Shown here in pieces: positions 15,325 through 17,577 of a DNA stretch of 64,000 nucleotides (position 1 is the stretch's first letter; every line of letters begins with the position of its first letter). Both the position numbers and the translations under genes were made by a program. Under the pieces are notes generated by a model. It ran no database searches. It worked only from the letters and a program-made list of their open reading frames with translations, and was not told the origin of the DNA. Location: the NCBI RefSeq assembly GCF_003319125.1, contig NZ_QOHG01000024.1:1-64000 (forward strand), given 5' to 3'. Origin of the DNA: Blastococcus sp. TF02A-26 (GTDB lineage Bacteria; Actinomycetota; Actinomycetes; Mycobacteriales; Geodermatophilaceae).

Positions 15325-17577
15325 GTGGAGCAGTCAGCAGCAGCCGCCCTCGACGCCGTCCTCGCCACCACGGCGATCCGCAGCGTCTTCCAGCCGATCG
15401 TCGAGATCGACACCGGCCGGGTCGTCGCCTACGAGGCGCTGGCCCGCGGACCCCAGGGCCCACTGGAGCGGCCCGACGCCCTCTTCGCCGCCGCCCGCGC
15501 GGCCGGGCGGCTGGCCGAGCTGGACGAGGCCTGCCGGTCCGCGGCGCTGCGCGGCGCGCTGGCCCAGGGACTGACCGCTCCGCTGACGCTGTTCGTCAAC
15601 GTCGAGCCCGAGGTCCTCGACCGGGCGCCCGTGGAGACGCTGCTGGGCCTGGCGCACGCCGCGCCCGGCGGCCTGCGCGTCGTCCTCGAGATCACCGAGC
15701 GTGCGCTGGCCACCCGGCCGGCCGAGCTGCTGCGCACCGTCGAGCGGGTCCGGTCGGTCGGCTGGGGCGTGGCGGTGGACGACGTCGGCGCCGAGCCGAT
15801 GTCCCTGGCGTTCATGCCGTTGCTGCGCCCCGACGTGGTGAAGCTCGACCTGCGGCTGGTGCAGGAGCGCCCCGGCCCCGAGGTCGCGGAGATCATGAAC
15901 GCGGTCAACGCCTACGCCGAGCGCACCGGCGCGGTCGTCCTGGCCGAGGGCATCGAGGACGTGCACCACCTCGCCATGGCCCGTGGCCTCGGCGCCACCC
16001 TGGGTCAGGGCTGGCACTTCGGCCGCCCGGGGCCGGGACCGGTGTCCGGCCGGGAGACCGCCGTGCTGACGCTGCCGGTCAGCGGGAACTCCGCGGTCGC
16101 CGACGAGACCGTCTCCCCCTTCGCCTGCCTGCCCGAGGGCACGCCGCTGCGCCAGGCGCCCAAGGCGCTGCTCATCGAGCTGTCCAAGCAGCTCGAGCGC
16201 GAGGCCATGCGCATGGGGCAGACCTGCGTGGTCGCCGCCACCTTCCAGGAGGCCCGCCACTTCACGCCCTCGACCACCCAGCGCTACCGCGACCTGGTGG
16301 AGCGGACGGCGTTCGTCTGCGCCCTGGGCGAGGGCCTGCCCGAGGAGCCGTTGCCGGGCCTGCGCGGCGCCACCCTGGCCGACGGCGACGCGGTGCGCGG
16401 CGAGTGGGACCTCGCCGTGCTCAGCCCGCACTTCTCCGCCGCCCTCCTGGCCCGCGACCTCGGCGACGACGGCCCCGACGCCGAGCGCCGGTTCGAGTAC
16501 GCGCTCACCTACGAGCGGGACACGGTGGTGCGGGCGGCGTCGTCGCTGCTCGCCCGGGTCGCCCCGCGGGTCGCACCGCCGGTCCCGGTCGCCGCCCGCG
16601 CGGTGACCCCCGAGGCGGCCGTGGCCGTCGCGCGGGTGGCCGCCGCCGGCGTCCCGGCCGGCGAGGCGCTCCTGCTGGAGGCGCTCAGCGCCACCCCGAG
16701 CGGGGTCGCCGTCGCCGACATGCGGCTGCCCGACCAGCCGCTGGTCTACGTCAACCCCGCGTTCGAGCGGCTCGCCGGGCTGCCGGCCGACCAGCTGCTG
16801 GGCCGCAACTGCCGCTTCCTCCAGGGGCCGGACACCGACCCGGCCGCGGTCGCACGCATCCGGGCCGCCGTCGCCGCCGGTGAGGAGTGCCGGGAGACGG
16901 TGCTGAACGTCCGCGGGCCCGAGCGGACCCCGTGGTGGAACGAGCTGCACCTGGCACCGGTCCGCGACGCCGAGGGTGTCGTCGTCCAGTACATCGGCGT
17001 CCAGGTCGACGTCACCGCGCGCGTGGAGGCCGAGCGGGCGCTGCTGCAGGAGCGCGACCGCACCCGAGCCGCGCTCGCCCGCATCGAGGAGCTGGCCGCC
17101 ACCGACCCGCTGACCGGCCTGGCCAACCGCCGCCGGCTGCAGGAGCAGGTGGAGACCGCGCTGTGGGACGCCCGTGCCCGCGGCGACGCCCTCGCGCTGC
17201 TGTTCCTCGACCTCGACGGCTTCAAGGCGGTCAACGACCGGCTGGGCCACGCGGCCGGTGACGTCCTGCTGCAGGAGGTCGCCGCCCGCCTGCGTCGACG
17301 CCTGCGCCGCCGGGATCTCGTGGCCCGGCTCGGTGGCGACGAGTTCCTCGTCGCGCTGCCCGACCTCTCGGCCGACGACGCCGCGGGCGAGGCCCGGCGG
17401 ATCGCCGACGAGCTGTCCGCTGCCATCTGCCGGCCGGTGGAGATGCACGGTGTCCCGGTCGACGTGCGGGTCAGCGTCGGCATCGCGGTCGCACCGGACG
17501 ACGGCGACGACTTCGCCTCGCTGCTGCACCTGGCCGACCTGCGGATGTACGAGGCCAAGGCGGCCGTGGCGCGCTGA
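15325..17577 (+). CDS. EAL-DICT-LOV-GGDEF cyclic-di-GMP signalling protein
   Basis: A 750-residue multidomain protein for c-di-GMP turnover. The EAL phosphodiesterase domain (about 15-245) keeps EALAR (37-41), the VNVEPE Asn, LEITE, VDD, VKLD, AEGIED and GQGWHFGRP. Its loop 6, normally DFGTGYSSL, is DVGAEPMSL. Residues about 270-415 resemble the DICT sensory domain. Residues about 455-565 are a PAS domain of LOV type: GRNCRFLQG puts the flavin-adduct Cys at C496, and WNELHLAPV matches the LOV core. A helical linker leads to the GGDEF domain with GGDEF at 670-674 and the inhibitory I-site RRRD at 661-664. Blue light is therefore the inferred input. The start GTG lies 75 bases after the transporter. 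Confidence 0.93.

Follow-up and report, generated by a model that had tools for sequence, protein, structure and literature searches.

In the window, that is, the whole stretch of 64,000 nucleotides, from a soil actinobacterium, that was analysed, one open frame encodes a chain of 750 residues in which Pfam places EAL, DICT, PAS/LOV and GGDEF domains, in that order (Table 1). No clear ribosome site was seen for the GTG start, and homology begins near residue 3-14. A first-pass annotation had read all four domains in a single chain; Pfam and full-length orthologues confirm this, and the motif positions given there were all borne out (GRNCRFLQG from residue 493, with the cysteine at 496, WWNELHL from 537, RRRD at 661 and GGDEF at 670).

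Table 1. Features of the four-domain gene, in nucleotides of the window
Feature	Position	Strand	Basis
EAL-DICT-LOV-GGDEF gene	15325..17577	+	open frame, 750 aa, putative GTG start; full-length orthologues
EAL domain, residues 14-235	15364..16029	+	Pfam PF00563, 2.7e-38; conservation
Loop 6 of the EAL domain, residues 152-161	15778..15807	+	alignments; usual form DDFGTGYSSL
DICT domain, Pfam part residues 277-378, conserved block to about 415	16153..16569	+	Pfam PF10069, 1.3e-11
DICT-to-LOV connector, variable length, poorly conserved	16570..16674	+	alignment
LOV domain, residues 453-567	16681..17025	+	LOV matches in PDB; conserved FMN contacts
Codon of predicted flavin-adduct Cys496	16810..16812	+	sequence; C in 110/110 LOV-bearing rows
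LOV-to-GGDEF linker, 35 residues, D562-L596	17008..17112	+	count as in PMC10396304; helix 564-592 predicted
GGDEF domain, residues 591-747	17095..17565	+	Pfam PF00990, 6.3e-45
Inhibitory site RRRD, residues 661-664, 5 residues before the GGDEF motif	17305..17316	+	sequence
GGDEF motif, residues 670-674	17332..17346	+	sequence

A strong match, mostly full-length and with 65-91% identity, is present in 92 of 115 Geodermatophilaceae-like family genomes, and the survey of domain order that had been proposed earlier also returned full-length relatives in some other Actinomycetota. Since most family genomes hold full-length orthologues of this identity, a chance arrangement is excluded. Named relatives include those of Geodermatophilus saharensis (76% identity) and of Motilibacter deserti and Cellulomonas aerilata (63%). 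The gene adjoins pheS at 75 of the 164 fetched family loci, many of which are too short to reach pheS, and trmH and rplT lie on its other side at many loci; given this fixed chromosomal site, it looks vertically inherited. No operon partners were found, the neighbours rplT/trmH and pheS being conserved in place only, and the window contains no Rfam match. At loci L178, L200, L201, L205 and L206 stop codons or changes of frame divide or truncate the gene copies, which may reflect either decay or errors in the sequencing.

EAL-DICT proteins that stand alone, about 420 residues long, have a wider distribution across the order and the phylum. A second class shares the domain order at 46-48% identity but has a LOV-GGDEF linker of 21 residues. 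In the FastTree phylogeny the branches of the stand-alone EAL-DICT rows are long, so that the number of separate LOV-GGDEF gains is not fixed by it. The order EAL-LOV-GGDEF arose again within the same family, as seen in the proteins at L202, L203 and L204, which lack DICT and have a loop 6 of the ordinary kind (DDLGSGWSSL) and a linker of 21 residues.

We consider the protein of the window to be a real and probably functional blue-light receptor that has the two c-di-GMP enzymes in one chain, its parts known but their arrangement new; in the literature searched, outside which most subscription papers lie, no publication on the EAL-DICT-LOV-GGDEF order was found.

The LOV-GGDEF half

That the PAS domain preceding GGDEF is of the LOV type, as first proposed, is near certain from its sequence. 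Pfam PAS_9 matches residues 468-565 (7.6e-17), and searches of the PDB gave 155 sequences below 0.001, the best being 9vf7 (7e-34); many among the matches listed are named LOV, phototropin or aureochrome. The domain has the GxNCRFLQ motif with the adduct cysteine and the flavin-contacting N, N and Q expected of a photoactive LOV domain, and none of the FMN contacts R494, N495, C496, R497, Q500, N528, N539 and Q560 is missing; an alignment of 110 LOV-bearing relatives shows them kept in all 110, with a single R494L as the sole exception. It is therefore predicted to bind flavin and to respond to light. The match to the YtvA family NF052652, best over LOV plus linker only, reached 117.9 bits against a curated cut-off of 250. 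The LOV part of the AlphaFold2 model is confident. LOV structures were absent among the best 50 matches in a fold comparison of the model, which were filled by EAL and GGDEF structures; as the LOV fold rests on sequence, this says nothing against it.

The GGDEF active site and the inhibitory site are intact, in agreement with the first-pass annotation. The GGDEF part of the model is confident and superposes on GGDEF structures with Z 26.1 and rmsd 1.1 (156 aligned), and one confident, continuous helix (564-592) runs through the linker. Among PDB matches spanning both LOV and GGDEF, the best was 8c05, a 'sensor domain-containing diguanylate cyclase' (6.7e-47), which we take to be MsLadC.

The linker was counted from the D of D(I/V)(T/S) to the L of DxLT, a definition from PMC10396304. 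All 85 full-length members of the class have a linker of 35 residues, as do five further proteins from the wider order, and in members with a live GGDEF it is free of gaps, with a mean conservation per column of 84%. PAS-GGDEF proteins of other bacteria have a linker of 21 residues in 51 of 53 cases. This constancy is new here. The length is that of the long-linker, LOV-activated diguanylate cyclases, for which a tight dark state and a light activation of more than 10,000-fold are described (PMC10396304); by analogy, blue-light-activated c-di-GMP synthesis is likely.

The EAL-DICT half

The usual catalytic residues of the EAL domain are all in place, as had been stated (E37, R41, N92, E122, E125, D152, D153, K173, E208, E211 and Q228). 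Loop 6 reads DVGAEPMSL instead of DFG(T/A)GYSS, and the first-pass annotation had supposed that this alteration weakens or reroutes the EAL side. Our comparisons do not bear this out: almost all EAL-DICT proteins compared carry DDVGAxxxSLA or a close form, whether or not they also have LOV and GGDEF. Of the 34 EAL-DICT members from the order and phylum, at least 33 retain any given catalytic residue, and within the family these residues are retained almost everywhere. As the loop is family-wide, we rejected a lesion of this one protein. Other aligned EAL domains of the same genome have different loop 6 sequences, and the loop is thus best seen as a long-standing feature of EAL domains coupled to DICT; being common to the whole EAL-DICT family, it did not prevent us from filing the domain as EAL. 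Phosphodiesterase activity of the domain is likely from its residues, with loop 6 as a caveat. Degeneration and loss within the family affect GGDEF and spare the EAL side.

The DICT domain scores 44.9 bits against a Pfam cut-off of 23.8 and is the only one in its genome. A sequence search of the PDB gave no DICT relative, and we make no claim about the fold, since the isolated DICT model has a mean pLDDT of 37 and the full model stays below 50 from residue 255 to 427. A predicted role of DICT in light responses is cited in PMC8612252. In ordinary enzymes loop 6 serves EAL dimerisation, according to work cited in PMC7290235, so that DICT may, as a speculation, take over this contact. The connector between DICT and LOV occurs in many lengths across relatives, with 21% gaps and 48% mean conservation; set against the fixed 35-residue linker, it indicates that LOV is joined stiffly to GGDEF and loosely to EAL-DICT.

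The same genome holds an EAL protein (L241, C3:28500-32500) with the loop VDDVSAAGTS and a valine at the aligned position of a catalytic glutamate; judged from these residues, it is probably a non-catalytic EAL.

Probable outputs of the predicted light sensor

Natural losses of GGDEF bear on what the LOV domain controls. Twelve relatives, all from one clade, carry a GGDEF motif that is dead (for example RWTRDSF), and 12 others end after LOV; all of them keep Cys496, the flavin contacts and the EAL catalytic set, with one exception, E208A. Nine further relatives have a GGDEF-like end and no LOV. The ratio of GGDEF to EAL divergence is 3.63 [2.76-5.08] in the dead clade; six live clades from its class gave 1.43-2.36, and the bootstrap interval of the dead clade overlaps the upper ends of some of them. 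The corresponding LOV/EAL ratio is 1.42, inside the live range of 0.76-2.07, and 1.45 in the relatives that have no GGDEF. Because LOV is constrained just as strongly in relatives with a dead or missing GGDEF, it probably has an output other than GGDEF, most likely EAL-DICT. With the overlapping intervals and essentially one origin of the dead clade, this evidence is good, not decisive; moreover, the dead clade retains the 35-residue linker, so that LOV could still exert a regulatory effect through a GGDEF that is dead. In one relative (L116, G010:C1:2334000-2341000), EAL-DICT groups with the dead-GGDEF clade, while the LOV-GGDEF half, in which RLGGDEF is intact, resembles that of another genus; these differing affinities look like an exchange of the C-terminal half.

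We favour, with somewhat better than even confidence, a light receptor that combines a LadC-type LOV-GGDEF switch with a DICT-controlled EAL, LOV acting on both. The chain would have arisen by fusion of an old EAL-DICT phosphodiesterase module with a LOV-GGDEF cyclase module of the long-linker type. In blue light an adduct would form between flavin and Cys496, and the adduct would re-set the coiled-coil linker and so turn c-di-GMP synthesis on as in MsLadC, a mode of switching that we infer because layout and linker length are identical. Hydrolysis of c-di-GMP would fall to the EAL-DICT half under the control of DICT, and evolutionary evidence suggests that LOV acts on this half too. Since the length of the DICT-LOV connector varies, coupling through a rigid helix is excluded and tight mechanical control over EAL is argued against; a changed dimer shape or docking would be more likely.

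In a stronger form, which we put forward tentatively as one possibility, a single LOV drives the two enzymes oppositely, with breakdown in the dark and synthesis in blue light, or the reverse, and with DICT as second input; the clades that lose GGDEF would then be light-controlled phosphodiesterases. The first-pass annotation had proposed such a switch of balance: the light-controlled bifunctional enzyme that it implies is well supported by sequence and linker length, and the switch itself is what we infer. A rival reading, clearly less probable than the favoured one, holds that LOV governs GGDEF only and that EAL-DICT is a separate phosphodiesterase answering to DICT alone, so that one protein would serve two independent signals. 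The fixed linker beside a flexible connector speaks for it, as does the occurrence of EAL-DICT alone in many Actinomycetota, but the unchanged constraint and flavin residues of LOV in two clades with GGDEF dead or absent do not fit it.

It is also conceivable, and in our view unlikely, that the EAL domain is a c-di-GMP binding receptor, inactive as a phosphodiesterase, with which the protein reads its own light-made c-di-GMP. The known non-catalytic EAL domains of FimX and LapD lose some metal-binding or catalytic residues. The retention of these residues here, and across EAL-DICT proteins down to about 40% identity, is unlike that pattern; what favours a receptor is that loop 6 lacks the GYS residues of a motif described as essential for dimerisation and for metal and substrate binding (Rao et al., as cited in PMC7290235). 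Sensing of redox state or oxygen by the flavin domain, instead of light, is very improbable: LOV-like PAS domains can answer redox cues, as in RmcA (PMC8846402), and no phenotype is known here, but RmcA has no adduct cysteine, which is invariant here in all 110 LOV-bearing relatives.

Known systems and natural variants

MsLadC and SfLadC (PMC10396304) share with the favoured receptor a canonical LOV, a 35-residue helical linker and an active-type GGDEF with an RxxD site; they have neither EAL nor DICT, whereas the LOV-GGDEF part here makes up the C-terminal half of a longer protein. In Synechococcus elongatus, SL2 (LOV-GGDEF-EAL; PMC8846402) likewise joins LOV, GGDEF and EAL in one chain, and light raises its phosphodiesterase activity; its EAL is C-terminal, whereas here EAL is N-terminal, LOV lies between both enzymes and DICT is present. 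The stand-alone EAL-DICT proteins of Actinomycetota are 40-60% identical and have the same EAL, with the DDVGAxxxSLA loop, and the same DICT, but they stop after DICT, with no LOV or GGDEF. In Microcystis (PMC7063779) DICT is also joined to a c-di-GMP phosphodiesterase domain; there it is HD-GYP, and LOV is absent.

The natural variants, with both enzymes, a dead cyclase, no cyclase or no light sensor, several of them at the same chromosomal site, make the control of two opposing enzymes by one light sensor directly testable. Through them DICT, a sensory domain for which no ligand is known, becomes linked both to light sensing and to a defined variant of EAL. The long-linker module may also find optogenetic use.

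At the cut-off used, the only other LOV match in the same genome was a PAS-LOV protein (L283, 946-3234, C40), the C-terminal part of which reads like putative GAF and SpoIIE phosphatase domains. The window is nearly the whole contig (64,002 bases), and the genes of many relatives also lie about 15-20 kb from a contig end, a recurring distance that hints at a repeat upstream of the gene.
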